Assembly (NCBI GenBank): GCA_002104905.1
Contig: MCFE01000070.1
Location: forward strand, 123,138 to 187,137
Reading direction: 5' to 3'
Length of the DNA stretch: 64,000 nt
From: Basidiobolus meristosporus CBS 931.73
Taxonomy: Eukaryota > Basidiobolomycota > Basidiobolomycetes > Basidiobolales > Basidiobolaceae
The notes beneath the pieces are model-generated. The model saw only the letters and a list, made by a program, of their open reading frames with translations. It was not told the DNA's origin and ran no database searches. A program made the translations under genes and the position numbers. This document shows, piece after piece, positions 56,045 through 64,000 of this stretch (position 1 is the stretch's first letter; each line of letters opens with the position of its first letter).

Positions 56045-56333
56045 ATTCAGTTCTAGTTTCTATCCAAGCCTAGTATATCTAGCACTCCAAAGAACACCAA
56101 GCCTAGCCTGCCTAGCAAACAAATATCATTGTCTTTATAGCCAACCCAGCTATATCCAAGACCAATATTAGATCAGAATCTCTCTGCTAATATTTCCACC
56201 ACTCTCTGACAATTCCAAGATTCTGCACTTAATTGTCCCTTTGGTTCAGTTAAACCATTCAAGAGTTTTATTACACTTTCTCTTGGATACAACATTTTTT
56301 TGTTGAATTCCATTACATTCAGCCAATTAGAAA

Positions 56334-57203
56334 ATGTCCTCAGTAGCAAGCAATCCAAACCTTTCCATGTTGGAAGAAGCCAGAAGAAATCAGGAAGAAC
56401 TTACTGAACAGCTTGAAAACATCATGCTTGAAAGAAATACCATGATGCTTGAGCACTCAAAGCTTGCCAAAACAAGATCTGATAATCACTATAGAGATGA
56501 ACTCCTTGAAGTTATATCCGGTTACTAAGATGAAATTGGAATAATTAAAGAAGCACTGGAGGATATTGTCATAGTAATTGACAGCATTGAAAATCCGCCA
56601 AGCCGTGCTCTGCATCAGCCACCAAGAAGCCATGCCTTTGAATCCTCCAGATCTACATCTCCTTCTAGACCTGCCCCGGTGGTTGTCCCAAGATCCTTGC
56701 TTGTTTATGCTGAAGGCACCAATGCCATCAAGAGTCCAACTGAGTTTCTTTACAAGTTTAGTCATGTCTTAGATGCACACCAGCTAGACTCTGACACCAA
56801 CTGGGCTAGACTTCTGCCTCTCTGTCTCACAATGCAAGATGCTGACTGGGTTGAAGTGAACATTCCTTCCAATAGTATGTGGAAAATTGCCCAAAACCTC
56901 TTTTGCAGCCATTTTGAAGATCCTCTCAAGAAAGCACATCTGAACTGCAACTTATGGAAAACTAAAATGCAAAAAGGTGAATCTGTGCAACACTTCTGTG
57001 ATAGATTTCAAAGACAAATGAGATTAGCTGGAGTTAGTGATGATAATCCATCGCTTACTGCTCATTTTCTTTCAAACTTTTCACACCAGCTACAGAGCAA
57101 TATTGCTATTCTCAAAGCATGCAACCCTGCACGTACCTATGACCAGATCTCAGAGATATGTACACTGGCAATCACCTTGACTGCAGCTGTTAGCCAGATT
57201 TAG
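56334..57203 (+). pseudogene. Gag-like ORF truncated by telomere repeat
   Basis: ATG at 56334. The first 64 codons encode a coiled coil (EEARRNQEELTEQLENIM). A TAA at 56526-56528 interrupts the frame. The same frame then continues, through a Ser/Pro-rich linker, into a retrotransposon gag (Ty3/gypsy-type) core: EFLYKFSHVLDAHQLDSDTN, FCSHFEDPLKKAHL and GESVQHFCDRFQRQMRLAGV. The ORF has no zinc knuckle because it runs directly into TTAGGG repeats at 57200. Its terminal stop TAG (57201-57203) is part of the telomere sequence. Truncated by chromosome breakage and healing. Confidence 0.72.
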
Positions 57204-57222
57204 GGTTAGGGTTAGGGTTAGG
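57200..57222 (+). repeat. Interstitial telomere tract 1
   Basis: Three perfect TTAGGG units plus TTAGG, in the same orientation as the terminal telomere. It separates the broken gag ORF from the AT-rich block. It supplies the stop codon of both flanking ORFs. Confidence 0.9.
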
Positions 57223-57670
57223 CGAGTTTATGGCATGAAGTATTATTATTCTCTGCAATTGGTTTGTTGGATGATAAATTAGTTTTGTCAGCACACCTAT
57301 CATCCAACAACCTTTCTTCTTGCAAATTTTTTTGTAAATTTTGATAATTTGTATTAATAACAGATTGCAATTCTTCTTCTGTGTATAGGTAATGTTCCAT
57401 TAATGCAACGTAAGTCAGTGCAACCTTTGATATATGATACCCGCAATATTCTGAATCTTGTTTGACTTTGTGGCCGCATTTAGAACCTTTATTATGTCCA
57501 GTGGTTATTATAGCAATACATTTACAACTTTTTGCAGATTTGTCTGGATTATATTCTTGGTTAGCTAATATGGCATTTCTTGCATTGCAAATATGCAGTA
57601 TACATTGGTTAAGCCTTTTGGTTATATTGCTTTCAAGTTGGGCAAATAACTTCTGAATTTCAAATTCCAT
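57218..57670 (-). CDS. AT-block ORF A: Cys/His-rich protein, 150 aa, 3' end replaced by telomere
   Basis: Minus strand, ATG at 57670. No named family. The centre has CKCIAIITTGHNKGSKCGHK followed by EYCGYH, a C-x-C...C...C-x2-H pattern suggesting a small zinc ribbon. Such C...G...C...CGxH modules are common in nucleocytoplasmic large DNA virus proteins and in some mobile elements. Flanks are helical. The stop TAA is bases 57218-57220 of the telomere tract, so the original C-terminus is lost. Composition is far more AT-rich than the core genes. A foreign origin is likely; which source is unclear. Confidence 0.55.
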   Translation of the reverse strand: MEFEIQKLFAQLESNITKRLNQCILHICNARNAILANQEYNPDKSAKSCKCIAIITTGHNKGSKCGHKVKQDSEYCGYHISKVALTYVALMEHYLYTEEELQSVINTNYQNLQKNLQEERLLDDRCADKTNLSSNKPIAENNNTSCHKLA

Positions 57671-58021
57671 AGTTAGTTAACTTGCAAGTTAATCCAATAG
57701 TTGATTTAAAATCAGATGATAATAGAGAATATATATATAACATAAATTGTACAGATAATAGAAGCTAATATTACAAATAACAAATGATTGAGTTACGTGT
57801 GTAGGCCCAGAGTATCATTGACCAATCAATAAATAAAAAATTTTTTGTCAAACATTTTTTTTGCAAATTTATTTTTTGTGAATCCAGTTTGTTATATTAT
57901 CCACATTTTGTAAAAACCCATTTTTAATTCATAATTTTGTTAAACCTTGAATAACCCCATCTAAACTTAAAAAGTTTTTACAAACCCTAAATAATCTGAT
58001 CTCAACAACAAATTTTTTATT

Positions 58022-58450
58022 ATCTTAAACCCAAATTAATATCTTTGCATCAAGATTTAAACTTTAATCATCACGCCAAACTTTTTTAAATTATAAACGT
58101 TAAACTCGGATTAATATCTTTGCATCAAGATTTAAACTTTAATCATTACGCCAAACTTTTTTTAATTATAAATGTTAAACTCAAATTAATATTTTTGCAT
58201 CAAAATTTAAATTTGGATCATCACGCCAAACTGTTTTAAATTATAAATGTCCAACTAGGATTAAAATCTTGTCTTCAAAATCTAATTTTGGTTGTCCCAA
58301 AACTTTTTTAACAAACTTCTAAACGTCATACTAGAATTCAAATTTTGTCTTCAAGATTTGAGTTTGGTCGTTTTAAAACTTTTTTAACAAACTTCTAAAC
58401 GTCCGACTCAAATTAGTTTTTTGTTTTTAAAAATTTAGCTTTATCACCCC
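58022..58450. repeat. Degenerate tandem array, unit about 75 bp, copy set 1
   Basis: Unit features: TTAATATCTTTGCATCAAGA, TTTAAACTTTAATCATCACG, CCAAAC and a T-run, then ATTATAAACGTTAAACT. Clear units start near 58036, 58110 and 58186; later ones decay. The same unit reappears at 59800-60460. Confidence 0.75.
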
Positions 58451-58645
58451 GCAAACTTTTTTTAACTCCAAAAATTATTTAACACAACAAAATCTTAACA
58501 ATCACACCAGTTTTAAATCTTTTACATTACTTGTTCAACAAATAAAAATTCATCCAGACTTTTTGTCCAAACCTCTTTTTTTAATCTATGTTTTTAATCT
58601 ACGTTTTTATTGTAAGTATTTTTTTGTTAAACTTGTTAATACCAC

Positions 58646-59062
58646 TTAAATCATAACGCCAATTAACATTAATAACATAATAAACAAACCGTTTATAGTT
58701 ATTTTAGAACTGTTGGACCCCATTGGAAATACACAATTTCTACCTGGGGTTGTAATATTAGTATACATCCTTGTATTTCTGAAGTTGATATGATCACATT
58801 GGACAGAACAATACGTAAAACCATTTGTTGAACACAAATTAATTGCTTCTGAAGTCTTGTTTTGCAAAATATCTAAATTTGTATTATTGTTGTAGTTTAA
58901 ATAAACCCAATAATTAAATCCTTTGCATGTTCCATTAGTAACAACACCATTAGTAGACAAAGTTATCATATTAAAAAGATCCTTGTTTAAAAACATAAAT
59001 GCATTTAAAGTAAGAACTGTATTTATTTCTGCAACTTGGATGTATGTAAGAATGCAATACAT
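58646..59062 (-). CDS. AT-block ORF B: Cys-rich, N-glycosylation-rich membrane protein, 138 aa
   Basis: Minus strand, ATG 59062, TAA stop. The first about 30 residues are fairly hydrophobic (MYCILTYIQVAEINTVLTLN) and could act as a signal. The middle has five Cys and several N-x-S/T sites (NGT, NNT, NKT, NIT, NSS), as in an ectodomain. The C-terminus ITINGLFIMLLMLIGVMI is a membrane span. It resembles a small type I surface glycoprotein. No family recognised. Confidence 0.45.
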   Translation of the reverse strand: MYCILTYIQVAEINTVLTLNAFMFLNKDLFNMITLSTNGVVTNGTCKGFNYWVYLNYNNNTNLDILQNKTSEAINLCSTNGFTYCSVQCDHINFRNTRMYTNITTPGRNCVFPMGSNSSKITINGLFIMLLMLIGVMI

Positions 59063-59209
59063 AATTTAAAGTTTGTAAAAACTTGTTTATTTTTGTATAT
59101 AACAATCAAACAATATTATTACTTAAACCCTTAAAGAAAAATAAAAACAAATTTCTAAACGCTTAATTAGAAACTTTTTAACATTTAACATAATTGTTCC
59201 AGAAATTTT

Positions 59210-59785
59210 TTATGATTTAATCTGCAATAACAATGCATTATGTTTAACAGAAAAATATTTTGATTTTTGTTTTTGTTCCCATTTTAAATTCATAAGTTGT
59301 TGTTGTATTTCTTTTAATTTGACGCCATAAGTTTTACGTTCTTGATCTAGCTTTTTTATTTTTAAGTTTAATTTTGTTAATTTTTGTTCTATGCTTGGAT
59401 TACACTCTTGTTGAATCTTTTGTTCCGTCCAACTAATTTCTTGTTGAACTTGCTCTGTTTCTTGATTTATATGCTTTCATCTTTGTTCTATTTGGGATAT
59501 CTCATGTGCAACTTGTTTTAATTGTTGGTCAACTCCATCTTGAAAACTTTGCTGCTCTGGTTTAAGTTCACTTGCTAATTTGCTAATATTTTGGATTTTT
59601 ATTTCCAATGCTGATTTTCTTGGTTTGTATACATTATATACGTTGAAAACCATGTGTATAATATATATTATACATATTACATAATAAATTAATTTTTGCT
59701 TTTTTGACGAATCTGAAATAATGTGCATAATAATAGTTTTGTACATTTGTGTCAACAAATTTTTAACTTTACAATCAATATCCAC
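59210..59785 (-). CDS. AT-block ORF C: single-TM coiled-coil protein with in-frame TGA
   Basis: Minus strand. ATG at 59785; the frame reaches a TGA at 59479-59477 after 102 codons, then stays open for 88 further codons to a TAA at 59212-59210. Residues about 30-53 are a membrane span (KLIYYVICIIYIIHMVFNVY). The rest, on both sides of the TGA, is one continuous Lys/Glu/Gln coiled coil (ISQIEQR before; KHINQETEQVQQEISW after). An open frame of this length and composition in such AT-rich DNA is unlikely by chance, so the two parts belong together. The TGA is either a Trp codon, a read-through site, or a point mutation of TGG. Confidence 0.5.
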
Positions 59786-59799
59786 AGTTTATCTATAAT

Positions 59800-60460
59800 C
59801 CAAGCTTAATTGCTTATAAACTTTTTTAAAACATCTAAATGTCATACTAAAATTAGTATTTTGTCTTTAAAACCTGAGTTTGGTTGTTTTAAAACTTTTT
59901 TAAAAAATTATAAACGTTAAACTAAAATTAATATCTTTGCATCAAGATTCAAACTTTAATCATCACGCCAAACTTTTTAAAAAAATATAAACATTAAACT
60001 TGAATTAATATCTTTGCATCAAGATTTAAACTTTAATCATCACGCCAAATTTTTTAAATTATAAACATTAAACTTGGATTAATATTTTTACATCAAGATT
60101 TAAACTTGGATCATCACGCCAAACTTTTTTAAAATATAAACGTTAAACTTGGATTATTATTTCATATTCAAACTTAACTGAGACAAAATTCTTTACAAGT
60201 AGTTAGTTGTTTCAAGATCTAAACTTTGTCAAAAAACTTTTTTAAAACCAAATTTTTTAAACATCAAACCCAAATTGTTATTTTTTGTTTCAAGACTTGG
60301 ACTTAGTCTCAACAAAAAAATTATTTCAAGATCTAAACTTGGTCAAGACAAAACTTTTTAAAAAATTTTTACACGTATAACTTGAATTAATATTTGTTTC
60401 AAGACTTGAACTTGGATCATCCCGCAAGACTTTTTTAAATCAGATAAAAAAAATATTTTG
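59800..60460. repeat. Degenerate tandem array, unit about 75 bp, copy set 2
   Basis: Same unit as 58022-58450: TTGCATCAAGATTTAAACTT, then TAATCATCACGCCAAA and a T-run. About eight units, best preserved at 59930-60140. It lies between ORFs C and D. Confidence 0.75.
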
Positions 60461-60547
60461 CGCAAATAATTTTAATATATATATTAATTATAAAACAAAT
60501 ATAATGCCATTTTGCTCAATCAATATTAAACCAATTTTTGCAAAGGT

Positions 60548-61300
60548 TTAAAAAGATGTTTGTATCATGTAAGTTAAATATCTTACTAATGGTGCAAGTT
60601 GTTGTTTCCACAAATCTGGGTCTTTATTAATATAGATTTCTACTGGGTCAAATTTGGCTTTGTGTTCCCACCTTAATTTAGACCTAATCTCATCCAAATC
60701 GTTGTTATCAAAAATGTCTTCTCTGTTTGGTCCAACACACCAAATAATTTCCCACATATATCCTGAAGTTATAGCTCCATAAACCGTATGATCCATTCAA
60801 TGACCACATTTTATATTTTGCATATAAGCGTTATATAATTGCATAAGATTTTGGGCTTGACCTTGGTTCCACCCTTCTTGTTTTGCCTCAACAATAATTA
60901 CAAACTGTTTTTTATTTACAATCACAAATTCAACCGTACCCTTTACAGCATCACCTATAAGATTAAATTCTTGTTCAAGTTTAACCTCTTTATCGTAATA
61001 TAAAGCAACAATATTATATAATATTGTCAATACAAAATCACCTTGGGTAGTTTCTCCTTTGTCATCAACAACGCCCTTGGCTTTTGTAAGATTAATAAGA
61101 GACTTGACTATATGATTTAATGTATCTTCATCAACATCTGCTCCTTCAAGTTTAGAATCCATTGCCAAAAATTCTCTATATTTGATACCAAGAAACTCCA
61201 AAACTTTTTTGTAACTGATATTTGAATACCCGCCTTTATTTTCAGATTTATATTTATCTGATGTTGTAGATAAATTGACTATTCTTTTTTTGGTTGCCAT
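60548..61300 (-). CDS. AT-block ORF D: PD-(D/E)XK nuclease-like protein with in-frame TGA
   Basis: Minus strand. ATG at 61300, 167 codons, TGA at 60799-60797, then 82 more codons in the same frame to a TAA. GTVEFVIVNKKQFVIIVEAK has the E...ExK pattern of the PD-(D/E)XK fold (Glu124, Glu138, Lys140), followed by QAQNLMQLYNAYM, the usual Q-x2-x-QL helix. After the TGA, VYGAITSGYMWEIIW matches the (Y/F)GIVT-x-G-x-W segment that follows in fungal members of this family. The TGA therefore splits one domain. Sister proteins are abundant in some early fungi, often linked with Crinkler-type or mobile genes. Five other Trp codons are TGG. Confidence 0.6.
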
Positions 61301-61443
61301 GAAAAAATATTACAAATAAGTTGTTCAATGATAAAACATAAATGCAAAATAATAAATTTCAAATAAATGTAATATTATTATGTTAATTGGATTTTTTGCA
61401 TTTATCATCCAATATATACCATTTTTAATTCTCAGATGCAAAC

Positions 61444-61455
61444 TTAGGGTTAGGG
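61444..61455 (+). repeat. Interstitial telomere tract 2
   Basis: TTAGGG TTAGGG at the right border of the AT-rich block, directly before the first retroelement tail. Confidence 0.7.
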
Positions 61456-61484
61456 GGGAGACAGTCACCAACAGGTGAAATCTT
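61456..61484 (-). mobile_element. Tail-only retroelement fragment 1
   Basis: About 29 bp: GGGAGACAGTCACCAACAGG then TGAAATCTT. Its 3' end (minus sense) abuts TTAGGG on the left. Its right side meets TAGGGTTTAGGGG. This is only the 3' tail hairpin of the SINE/LINE family described below. Confidence 0.6.
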
Positions 61485-61497
61485 TAGGGTTTAGGGG

Positions 61498-61527
61498 CGG
61501 GAGACAGTCACCAACAGGTGAAATCTT
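61498..61527 (-). mobile_element. Tail-only retroelement fragment 2
   Basis: Same 3' tail as fragment 1 (GAGACAGTCACCAACAGG, TGAAATCTT), again between telomere-like runs (TTTAGGGG on the left, AGGGTAGGGG on the right). Confidence 0.6.
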
Positions 61528-61538
61528 AGGGTAGGGGG

Positions 61539-62059
61539 GGAGGAAAGTCACCAAGTGGTGAAATCTTTATTTACTTATGACAAGTATCTAAAGAAGCCAA
61601 GTTAATCTGAAGTAATTCCTAGAAAGCTAGGTCTGAGAGATATCTTCCTGGTAAGCCAGGTCTGAGAGTTGAGAAGCTGAGTGGTACTATATTTCCTAGT
61701 TAGCTAGGTCTGAGAGAGGTTTCCTGGAAAGCCAGGCCTGAGAAGTGAGAATCTGAATATATCTGAGCTAAGTTATACTGGTTTGCGGTAGCTGAATTGT
61801 GGCCGGAATGGCCAGTAGACTGGGGGAACTGAGAGGAATTTCTGGGCGATCACTGGCCAAATTTACTAGGCAAATCTGGCCAATTAGCATTTCAAGGATT
61901 TCAGCCAATCAGAGCCTTTACTTTGCCCGATGGTTGATCAAGCCATCTCCCAATGAGCACACATCAATTTATTAATCAAATTTTGCTGGATCCAGGATTT
62001 GAACCCACAACCATGGGTATGGAAGGGTTAGGGATAACCACAAGGCTAAGTGTTCTTGG
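61539..62059 (-). mobile_element. tRNA-derived SINE, copy 1 (521 bp)
   Basis: Minus-sense element. Its 5' end at the right (minus strand ACCAAGAACACTTAGCC...) holds a pol III A box (TAGCCTTGTGG) and B box (GGTTCAAATCC), i.e. a tRNA-like head. A unique body follows with CTAGGTCTGAGA-type internal repeats (plus strand). The 3' tail on the minus strand is AACTTGGCTTCTTTA ... AAATAAAGATT ... hairpin. A single TTAGGG (62060-62065) separates it from copy 2. Confidence 0.72.
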
Positions 62060-62065
62060 TTAGGG

Positions 62066-62586
62066 GGAGGAAAGTCACCAAGTGGTGAAATCTTTATTTA
62101 CTTATGACAAGTATCTAAAGAAGCCAAGTTAATCTGAAGTTGTTCCTAGAAAGCTAGGTCTGAGAGATATCTTCCTGGTAAGCCAGGTCTGAGAGTTGAG
62201 AAGCTGAGTGGTACTATATTTCCTAGTTAGCTAGGTCTGAGAGAGGTTTCCTGGAAAGCCAGGCCTGAGAAGTGAGAATCTGAATATATCTGAACTAAGT
62301 TATACTGGTTTGCGGTAGCTGAATTGTGGCCGGAATGGCCAGTAGACTGGGGGAACTGAGAGGAATTTCTGGGCGATCACTGGCCAAATTTACTAGGCAA
62401 ATCTGGCCAATTAGCATTTCAAGGATTTCAGCCAATCAGAGCCTTTACTTTGCCCGATGGTTGATCAAGCCATCTCCCAATGAGCACACATCAATTTGTT
62501 AATCAAATTTTGCTGGATCCAGGATTTGAACCCACAACCATGGGTATGGAAGGGTTAGGGATAACCACAAGGCTAAGTGTTCTTGG
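62066..62586 (-). mobile_element. tRNA-derived SINE, copy 2 (521 bp)
   Basis: Near-identical to copy 1, shifted by 527 bp. I see only about four base differences, such as GAAGTTGTT for GAAGTAATT and CTGAACTAAG for CTGAGCTAAG. Full tRNA-like head, body and tail. Followed by four exact TTAGGG units. Confidence 0.75.
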
Positions 62587-62610
62587 TTAGGGTTAGGGTT
62601 AGGGTTAGGG
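62587..62610 (+). repeat. Interstitial telomere tract 3
   Basis: Exactly four TTAGGG units between the SINE head and the 3' end of the LINE-like element. Confidence 0.92.
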
Positions 62611-63843
62611 GATGATCATCACCAAAGGGTGAAATCTTTATTTAAATAATAAATAAAGAAGCCAAGTTTGCATATGAATATCTGAGATGCAGGAAGCCTA
62701 CAAGATAAACTTGGACTTTGCTGTATCCCAAATATCCTCAATATCAAAGTCTAGAGGAGAGTGTAGCAAGACTGCTTGTTCACTGTAGTATTTCTTGAGG
62801 AAGTTTGTGACTTGAAGGGAAGGAGAGTTTTTCAACAAGCTGGTAAATCTTTTGAGGAGTTCTTTTTCCAGAGAGAATGGCACAAAGAGTGGAATGTCCA
62901 AATGATGTCTGAATATATGCTCTGAGAGCTCCCAATCCAGCATATTTTTGACTTCTTCTGTAAAATCTTCAACAATATCTTTGTCAAGAATAACTTCCAA
63001 GAGATCCCTGGCAATGTACTGAATGTTAATAATCTTAGGCATATGAATACCTAGGTCCTTGAGGTAGTTTCTTTGTTCTGATATTGGGAGATATCCTGCA
63101 TTTCTGAAATAGCAAACTGCCCAGTTGGCAGTAGGAGGAGTATCAGGGCTGACAGGGAATCTTCTTCTGGCTTTAGAGTGCACTGGCTTAGGAGACTGTC
63201 TTGATGGAAGGGCAGCTGGTTTTGGATGAGCTTGAACTGCTTGGGAGTAGGTCTGAGTACAAGTAGTAGAAGTTCCTGGTTGCTGAGAATTTTCAGATTG
63301 ACTGGATGAAGAGCTAATTGAGGGGTTGCAAGGTAAGGAAGAAGCTGAAAGAGAAGTGGAGAGGGCTGGGTGAAGTTCAGAAAGAGTTTTGAAAAGAATT
63401 TGGATCTGAGATTTCAACATTGAGTTTTCAGCTTCAAGAAGAGAAACTCTTTGTTCAAGGTAAGAAGTCTGTAAAGAGTGAAAGTTGGGTAAAGACATGG
63501 AAGTAGTAAATAAGAAGAAAGGAGTAGTTGGGGTGGGAGGGTGGGAAAATAGGTAAGAAGAAAAGAGAGGAAAGATCTGAAATTGAAAATCTCAGAATTT
63601 ATAGATGGATGGACAAGGGTAGAGGATTGATTAATCCAGGGTTAGGGAAAAATAGGTAAGAAGAAAAGAGAGGGTAGTAAATAAGAAGAAAGGAGTAGTT
63701 GGGGTGGGAGGGTGGGAAAATAGGTAAGAAGAAAAGAGAGGAAAGATCTGAAATTGAAAATCTCAGAATTTATAGATGGATGGACAAGGGTAGAGGATTG
63801 ATTAATCCAGGGTTAGGGAAAAATAGGTAAGAAGAAAAGAGAG
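62611..63843 (-). mobile_element. ORF1-only LINE-like retroelement abutting the telomere
   Basis: Minus-sense. The 3' tail (62611-62697) has the hairpin TCACCAAAGGGTGA and the AAATAAAGATT and AACTTGGCTTCTTTA words shared with the SINE. It carries one ORF (62698-63498) and a 345-bp leader containing two 171-bp units. No reverse transcriptase/endonuclease ORF lies between the ORF1 stop and the tail, so it is non-autonomous or internally deleted. Confidence 0.6.
62698..63498 (-). CDS. LINE ORF1/gag-like protein, 266 aa
   Basis: Minus strand, ATG 63498, intact. Residues 12-42 are a coiled coil (YLEQRVSLLEAENSMLKSQI), as used for trimerisation in LINE ORF1p. A Ser/Pro/Gln-rich linker with basic clusters (KARRRF) comes next. 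The C-terminal half begins WAVCYFRNAGYLPISEQRNY and has LGIHMPKIINIQYIARDLLE, resembling the RNA-binding part of fungal LINE ORF1/gag proteins. No CCHC knuckle. It would coat element RNA. It is adjacent to a telomere tract at each end. Confidence 0.6.
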   Translation of the reverse strand: MSLPNFHSLQTSYLEQRVSLLEAENSMLKSQIQILFKTLSELHPALSTSLSASSLPCNPSISSSSSQSENSQQPGTSTTCTQTYSQAVQAHPKPAALPSRQSPKPVHSKARRRFPVSPDTPPTANWAVCYFRNAGYLPISEQRNYLKDLGIHMPKIINIQYIARDLLEVILDKDIVEDFTEEVKNMLDWELSEHIFRHHLDIPLFVPFSLEKELLKRFTSLLKNSPSLQVTNFLKKYYSEQAVLLHSPLDFDIEDIWDTAKSKFIL

Positions 63844-63844
63844 G
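63503..63844. repeat. Tandem duplication, two 171-bp units, in the element's 5' leader
   Basis: Units 63503-63673 and 63674-63844 look identical. Each contains AGGTAAGAAGAAAAGAGAGG twice and an internal GGGTTAGGG. The second unit ends exactly where the terminal telomere starts. Confidence 0.85.
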
Positions 63845-64000
63845 GTTAGGGTTAGGGTTAGGGTTAGGGTTAGGGTTAGGGTTAGGGTTAGGGTTAGGGT
63901 TAGGGTTAGGGTTAGGGTTAGGGTTAGGGTTAGGGTTAGGGTTAGGGTTAGGGTTAGGGTTAGGGTTAGGGTTAGGGTTAGGGTTAGGGTTAGGTTAGGG
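63843..64000 (+). repeat. Terminal telomere, (TTAGGG)n
   Basis: About 26 TTAGGG units running to the window end, with one shortened unit (TTAGG) near the last bases. G-strand orientation marks the right edge as a real chromosome end. Confidence 0.97.

Follow-up and report, generated by a model that had tools for sequence, protein, structure and literature searches.

The distal end of contig MCFE01000070.1 of the fungus Basidiobolus meristosporus CBS 931.73 carries a stack of retroelement pieces that are best explained as telomere-specific non-long terminal repeat (non-LTR) retroelements. The window, namely the whole stretch of 64,000 nucleotides (nt) that was analysed, covers positions 123138-187137 of this contig of 187,137 bases (our C980), and its outermost sequence is a TTAGGG array reaching the contig end. 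Throughout the genome, copies of these elements are present near contig ends (telomeric in those cases that were read as far as the end), with their 5' side outward and most of their 3' ends placed after G-rich telomere-type DNA. A long interspersed nuclear element (LINE), named here LINE1, a tRNA-type short interspersed nuclear element (SINE), an element restricted to a first open reading frame (ORF1) and further families share a 3' end made of two hairpins and a C-run, and a second lineage, LINE2, with a different tail, behaves like LINE1 at telomeres. We propose, with moderate confidence, that the telomeric G-strand primes the synthesis of element cDNA, most likely at short or uncapped ends, and that telomerase then recaps the product. 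From the location, orientation, junctions, shared tails and 3'-end stubs described below, we infer which primer is used and in what order the steps follow one another.

The telomere-linked stack

The first-pass annotation of the window had recognised five element pieces, all in the same orientation, and both their coordinates and their strands bear this out: the RNA sense of all five is the minus strand. It had also placed each piece after TTAGGG or a G-run. On the plus strand, TTAGGG-type sequence and a G-run do lie upstream of each piece, and the last piece is followed by the terminal TTAGGG array. Read from 61444, the order is spacer, tail, spacer, tail, spacer, SINE, spacer, SINE, (TTAGGG)4G, ORF1-only element and array. 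The first spacer, TTAGGGTTAGGGGGG (61444-61458, plus strand), precedes a LINE1 3' tail cut to 24 nt (61459-61482, minus strand), which is also found on LINE1 copies and contains the plus-strand hairpin TCACC-AACA-GGTGA. The spacer TTTAGGGTTTAGGGGCGGG (61483-61501, plus) separates it from a second LINE1 3' tail cut to 24 nt (61502-61525, minus). Beyond the spacer TTAGGGTAGGGGGGG (61526-61540, plus) lie a 519-nt SINE copy bearing the two-hairpin shared 3' end (61541-62059, minus), the spacer TTAGGGGG (62060-62067, plus), a second 519-nt SINE copy (62068-62586, minus) and the spacer (TTAGGG)4G (62587-62611, plus). The outermost piece (62612 to about 63841, minus), previously described as LINE-like, has the shared 3' end and codes for an ORF1-like protein of 266 residues (62698-63498, minus), but it encodes no reverse transcriptase (RT) and is hence an ORF1-only element, with two identical 171-bp repeats on its 5' side (63503-63846). 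The terminal (TTAGGG)n array occupies 63842-64000 on the plus strand.

LINE1, located outside the window, is composed of ORF1 and ORF2, the latter harbouring an apurinic/apyrimidinic endonuclease (APE)-type region and RT. ORF1 spans at least 480 residues at locus L053, and probably some 500 if the start found in L099 is included, and carries a cysteine-rich N-terminus and a coiled-coil-like stretch. The open frame of ORF2 extends up to about 922 residues and matches the Pfam model RVT_1 with 86.8 bits, the RT showing sequence likeness to human L1 ORF2. In the endonuclease region, two Pfam models score 19.2 and 16.9 bits, both below cut-off; the N, Y, GDxN and SDH motifs are kept in the alignment and are N-terminal in ORF2, and the position of the metal-binding Glu is occupied by Asp in LINE1 as well as in the database relatives P0001 and P0003. 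The Pfam search of ORF2 reported neither an RNase H nor a REL (restriction enzyme-like endonuclease) domain. The 5' region of LINE1 contains tandem repeats. As for the 266-residue protein of the stack, it matches LINE1 ORF1 at 29% over 154 residues (E 2e-18), and a third ORF1 of the genome at 49% over 152 residues.

The SINE carries near its 5' end an A-box-like motif, TAGCCTTGTGG, and a B-box, GGTTCAAATCC, as judged against the general consensus, and its 3' end is common with LINE1. By sequence it is of tRNA type and shares its 3' end with a LINE in the manner of SINE/LINE pairs, and it would be mobilised by the LINE1 RT. No tRNA was found in the stack by ARAGORN or Rfam; the sole Rfam match, to CsrC (19 bits versus a gathering score of 61), was taken as chance. 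The common 3' end was followed in 11 aligned tails, chosen from 45 distinct ones, and the 3' ends of LINE1, SINE and ORF1-only element each fold into two hairpins and leave the C-run unpaired (z-scores of -3.6, -2.3 and -3.5, respectively). The TCACC/GGTGA stem is invariant, being part of the search pattern, and therefore carries no covariation test.

A diverged remnant on C27 (L043:1115-1714) resembles by eye the C-terminal part of LINE1 ORF2, with no Pfam match; it suggests an older related lineage at the same ends.

The tail and its junctions across the genome

The tail pattern, TCACC-N4-GGTGAAATCTT, has 1,200 matches on the plus and 100 on the minus contig strand of the 89.0 Mb host genome, while the reversed pattern used as a control has 0 matches in the same 89.0 Mb, so that the tail is not a product of chance. 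With GGG at a fixed upstream position, 1,015 plus and 78 minus matches were counted. This strand imbalance follows from contig orientation, so that direction relative to the chromosome end is what counts. Among the tails listed up to contig C104, 85 of 98 have TTAGGG 4-16 nt upstream. The search that the first-pass annotation had proposed, for the tail beside TTAGGG at other contig ends, bears out its observation and extends it genome-wide, the tail occurring 1,300 times in all.

TTAGGG is present within 22 nt before 55 of 67 distinct junctions, compared with 139 of 10,000 random 18-nt windows of the same loci, the two window sizes being different. A telomere-type spacer was recognised at 58 of the 67 junctions, with a median length of 12 nt and a maximum of 27 nt; one unit was counted in 43 spacers, two in 9, three in 4, four in 2, and none at 9 junctions. 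Telomere sequence between the pieces, as initially described, is therefore real, but it mostly amounts to a single unit genome-wide rather than to long tracts. G-runs of 3 to 10 and spacers of one to four units occur across all families, and the inner sequences preceding the spacers are very varied. By comparison, in those 19 of the loci read that end in a terminal array (18 contigs), this array is 143-243 nt long, some arrays being interrupted and hence longer; insertion at random depth into a full-length telomere is not in keeping with spacers of at most 27 nt.

The register of the spacers was assessed from 107 junction candidates, of which 64 had a comparison copy and 43 were resolved near the spacer, 4 spacerless ones being dropped. 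Of the remaining 39 junctions, 25 have a spacer that picks up the telomere register where the last inner base leaves it, versus 47% in a simulation of random breakpoints (p 0.02), an expectation that weakens the register argument and leaves its support modest. On contig C2, a unit of about 120 bp is repeated with differing spacers.

Orientation and distance to contig ends

LINE1 copies were collected as matches to the endonuclease region (150 parsed of 151 matches reported, from the 150 best of 1,294 candidates). Orientation was assessed on contigs longer than 50 kb, the fetched sizes falling monotonically with rank and the remaining sizes being interpolated; exact sizes were fetched for five LINE1 copies first placed at least 20 kb away, four of which then lay at less than 20 kb, the fifth being that of C726. 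Among these best matches, all 120 copies on contigs longer than 50 kb lie within 20 kb of an end, and 119 of them turn their 5' side towards the nearest end. The first-pass annotation had opposed to its reading a pattern of internal copies in both orientations, and this is not what was seen, these 120 LINE1 copies including a single wrong-facing one and none beyond 20 kb.

The control was a copia family of the same subtelomeres, queried with a 257-residue 5' polyprotein piece (148 best of 8,491 candidates). Its copies were distributed over both strands (87 plus, 61 minus); on contigs longer than 50 kb, 58 of 107 were less than 20 kb from an end, of which 17 faced outward in the LINE sense. It follows that contig breaks at repeats explain some of the end enrichment, but not the orientation.

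In ten contigs with at least two listed LINE1 copies, the outer copy scored higher in 8 (p 0.055), and stops were found in 4 inner copies out of 10 but in none of the 10 outer ones, which lends modest support to growth by successive addition at the end; C1, where the query itself is the outer copy, was left out of this comparison, as was the middle copy on C661.

LINE2, initially taken as a control LINE, was dropped in favour of copia when it turned out to be a second telomere-facing family. Found in C284, it possesses an endonuclease region of its own, in which the Glu is kept, as well as an RT sharing 30% identity with that of LINE1 over 328 residues. Its 3' end, which lies after (TTAGGG)n, bears no relation to the LINE1 tail. 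The LINE2 tail pattern has 24 matches (22 plus, 2 minus), 23 of which are preceded by TTAGG, the 24th (C404) showing no further likeness to the element. Nine LINE2-tailed copies were read; no two have the same inner flank, and each has 2-4 telomere units. In seven of them a long telomere array lies within about 1.4 kb, which identifies these as short, non-autonomous versions near the end. With regard to LINE2 proper, 23 match rows yielded 19 copies after four second pieces were dropped, and the 12 assessed on contigs longer than 50 kb are all outward-facing and within 20 kb of an end. The short LINE2-tailed element (e.g., on C23, C45, C351 and C427) displays G-rich repeats at its 5' end, TTAGGGGAGATTG.

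Telomere arrays, telomerase and stubs

The motif (TTAGGG)3 gives 8,002 + 103 overlapping matches in the genome, which may possess very many telomeres. Both ends (300-1,500 bases each) were sampled on 16 contigs longer than 100 kb, ten chosen by rank and six because they hold copies to check, and a right-end TTAGGG array was found in 7 of the 16. One of these seven, C424 (312,558 bp), has arrays at both ends and is thus apparently a complete small chromosome. Of the ten rank-chosen contigs, the five with a right-end array all bear tails; tails also occur on three that end in other sequence, and for C102 and C125 no tail was listed and no array was seen in the sampled ends. Telomere arrays lie directly on 5'-truncated elements at several loci (e.g., C609 and C353). 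Furthermore, the telomerase RNA-binding domain was detected on C880 in two pieces of 40.5 and 34.7 bits, both above cut-off, one of them with a stop codon in its matched part, possibly due to an intron.

A search for GGGGAG followed by 2-18 nt and (TTAGGG)3 returned 15 matches. Five of these (C293, C496, C726, C760 and C1102) are stubs, in which the G-run is succeeded by about 5-11 nt of the element 3' end and then directly by three or more TTAGGG units; for C293 and C726, the long array behind was also read. Of the ten other matches, six come from the 5' end of the LINE2-tailed element, two from element bodies and two from a local G-rich repeat. A sixth stub, of about 10 nt, precedes a LINE1 copy in C2. 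Such stubs are the expected trace of aborted reverse transcription from a telomeric 3' end, but aborted insertion at a nick could also leave them.

In other respects, (TTAGGG)3 also occurs at C1:184730-184747, amid a 345-kb contig and 160 kb from its end, possibly as an internal relic.

Proposed mechanism and alternative explanations

In the mechanism that we favour, the LINE1 RT would bind the shared 3' end of any RNA of the family, and the C-run of the RNA would pair with the GGG at the 3' end of a telomeric G-strand that is short or uncapped. The 3' end of this strand would then prime cDNA synthesis in the direction leading away from the centromere, synthesis halting anywhere from a few nt to full length, and the new 3' end would be extended either by telomerase or by the next element, so that repeated rounds would build head-to-tail stacks. 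Priming by the G-strand with recapping by telomerase was already the proposal of the first-pass annotation; it is supported by the orientation, the location near contig ends, the junctions, the telomerase gene, the arrays on truncated elements and the stubs, while the choice of the chromosome 3' end over a nick as the primer stays conditional. A broader version, which we advance tentatively as somewhat short of probable, is that in one telomerase-positive genome two lineages of APE-type LINEs use the telomeric 3' end of the chromosome as primer and mobilise SINEs and ORF1-only elements, and that on many small chromosomes they constitute, together with telomerase, a standing second system of end extension, in which the RNA 3' end of each element determines the spacer length.

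Several observations weigh against priming by the chromosome end. TTAGGG is lacking at the tested spacing in 13 of the 98 tails, and 9 of the 67 junctions are spacerless by the rule used, although several of these are irregularly G-rich. Spacers of at least two units are found at 15 of 67 LINE1-type but at 9 of 9 LINE2-type junctions (Fisher p 9e-6, a post hoc comparison), and a spacer length that differs by element means that part of the spacer may be copied from RNA. The wrong-facing LINE1 copy on C726 lies 12.4 kb from the nearest end; this contig terminates in a SINE stub with a telomere array beyond it, and the copy is accordingly read as an internal relic, its array possibly reflecting a fusion, an inversion or a chimeric contig. 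Because the tail pattern was exact and the lists ran from the best match downward, the counts are biased towards young copies, and old, diverged internal relics may be under-counted. Homogenisation of outer copies could produce the difference in score between inner and outer ones. Finally, the whole argument, including any activity of the elements, is deduced from the sequence of one assembly.

Both LINE1 and LINE2 retain endonuclease regions, so that an internal nick could supply the primer, and short spacers could be the survivors of breakage. The main alternative, which in our opinion is unlikely, is cleavage of the G-strand by the APE-type endonuclease within double-stranded telomere DNA, in the manner of SART/TRAS of the silkworm; the site would fix the orientation, and the inner tracts would later shrink or break. 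The endonuclease motifs are indeed kept in LINE1 (with Asp for Glu) and LINE2 (with Glu), and in the relevant passages of the report on the MoTeR elements, which have the same orientation, the authors interpret these elements as cleaving telomeres and describe interstitial tracts of more than three units as breakage-prone (PMC7367193). Yet no spacer at the 58 junctions approaches the length of a terminal array, the difference in spacer length between LINE1 and LINE2 is not predicted by a common breakage filter, and the ultra-short stubs also speak against this scenario. We find it rather improbable that the TTAGGG unit belongs to the 3' end of the RNA itself, the RT starting on any broken DNA end and copying a CCCTAA-type tail, in which case each step could dispense with a telomere already in place. 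Such a tail would account for the prevalence of one-unit spacers beside the 2-4 units of LINE2-type copies, for spacers that follow very varied inner sequences and for an element-specific spacer length, and it is also compatible with priming at the end; on the other hand, spacers and G-runs vary in length over all families, and the five stubs are followed, on our reading, by telomere repeats in a register that telomerase could give.

Growth of the stacks mainly by recombination, i.e., by break-induced copying between ends at TTAGGG junctions instead of repeated retrotransposition, appears very unlikely. Rearrangement of this kind is reported for MoTeR arrays (PMC7367193), and the repeated unit of C2 is of this appearance, but most junctions read pair different truncation points with different families, all nine LINE2-type copies read differ in their inner flank, and recombination leaves the origin of the first junctions unexplained. 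An assembly artefact, by which repeats would gather at contig ends because assemblies break there, is scarcely credible: copia is end-enriched too, but its outward fraction of 17 of 58 contrasts with 119 of 120 for LINE1 and 12 of 12 for LINE2, and tails are carried by every rank-chosen large contig with a right-end telomere array.

Comparison with known telomeric retroelements

Endonucleases of the REL type (CRE/MoTeR/FoTeR) sit after the RT, in elements without APE. The Pfam matches in ORF2 of LINE1 are to RT and APE-type models alone, and the element accordingly falls outside this group. MoTeR1 and MoTeR2 of Magnaporthe oryzae, an autonomous element and its non-autonomous partner, are non-LTR elements residing in TTAGGG telomeres; they resemble the present elements in having 5' ends outward, head-to-tail arrays, short TTAGGG tracts in between and 5' truncations, but MoTeR1 has a REL-type endonuclease (SLACS/CRE-like) where the LINEs studied here have APE-type regions, and MoTeR2 shares both ends with MoTeR1, whereas the partners here share the 3' end and one of them is a tRNA-type SINE (PMC7367193). 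FoTeR of Fusarium oxysporum is likewise a telomere-confined fungal LINE with telomere motifs at both ends and tandem repeats on the 5' side; it differs in grouping with MoTeR1 in the REL-domain clade and in having typically 3.0-7.0 telomere copies at its 3' end, and the word SINE is absent from the main text of its description (PMC12857005).

Like SART and TRAS, LINE1 combines in ORF2 an APE-type endonuclease region (models below cut-off, motifs aligned) with RT, and its copies are telomere-confined with a fixed orientation, among the best matches on contigs longer than 50 kb. SART and TRAS belong to the R1 clade by RT phylogeny. The passages on these Bombyx and Tribolium elements in PMC5537684 present them as APE-type, telomere-repeat-specific and resident in hosts still having telomerase in the genome; they differ in being described as inserting inside the repeats through endonuclease specificity, and no SINE partner is mentioned in those passages.

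With regard to the Drosophila elements HeT-A, TART and TAHRE, the orientation and position of the present copies agree with terminal transposition, and their addition at the very end is what the proposed mechanism would imply. HeT-A has a gag-type ORF without RT. To our knowledge, Drosophila telomeres are devoid of telomerase and TTAGGG; the present genome differs by telomere repeats at the junctions and a telomerase gene, and with TTAGGG arrays at contig ends and a gene for the telomerase RNA-binding domain, telomerase has not been replaced. According to the account of these elements in PMC5537684, they are arranged head-to-tail with the poly-A (3') side towards the centromere and are added successively to chromosome ends. 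In their way of working they are most like the present elements, but without telomerase.

The RNA 3' end directed towards the centromere, which the first-pass annotation had likened to terminal elements, holds with near uniformity, whereas the retention of an endonuclease departs from terminal Penelope-like elements. LINE1, with its L1-ORF2-like RT (by sequence) and its APE-type region, lies outside the endonuclease-deficient Penelope-like class, which also has fungal members. The Athena elements of this class, as portrayed in part of PMC5537684, show short telomere repeats at their 3' end, 5' truncation and an uncapped end inferred at insertion, but they have another class of RT and are endonuclease-deficient, in contrast to the LINE-type ORF1 and ORF2 with an APE-type region found here.

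A limited literature search of titles and abstract openings yielded no tRNA-type SINE partner of a telomeric LINE, from which we claim no absence from print. The earlier statement that no fungal LINE/SINE pair was known to behave in this manner was too strong in so far as a LINE with a non-autonomous partner had been described (MoTeR1/MoTeR2, and FoTeR, in the sources cited above); what appears to be new is the association of a tRNA-type SINE with APE-type LINEs at fungal telomeres.

Sequence adjoining the stack

On the inner side of the stack, an interstitial (TTAGGG)3TTAGG (57200-57222, plus strand) is followed by an AT-rich segment of 4.2 kb. This block (57223-61443), flanked by (TTAGGG)3 and (TTAGGG)2, has a GC content of 26% versus 45% for positions 1-56000, and contains minus-strand ORFs, one of which weakly resembles the N-terminus of a type I restriction enzyme (16.3 bits, below cut-off); it is possibly foreign or mobile DNA captured at the telomere. 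Further inward, a Ty3-type gag fragment (56100-57199; Retrotrans_gag 23.3 bits, just below cut-off) abuts telomere repeats, which would be consistent with telomerase having healed a broken element.

Implications

The fungal telomeric LINEs described in the sources consulted, MoTeR and FoTeR, are of the REL-endonuclease group, and the APE-type LINEs of B. meristosporus, with their SINE and ORF1-only partners, appear to be their equivalent. Two lineages and more than 1,000 tails are involved, in a host keeping its telomerase gene. The series of junctions, including stubs of a few nt, constitutes a natural record of RT and telomerase possibly alternating at one DNA end, and bears on how telomerase-free telomeres of the Drosophila type may have evolved from a mixed state.

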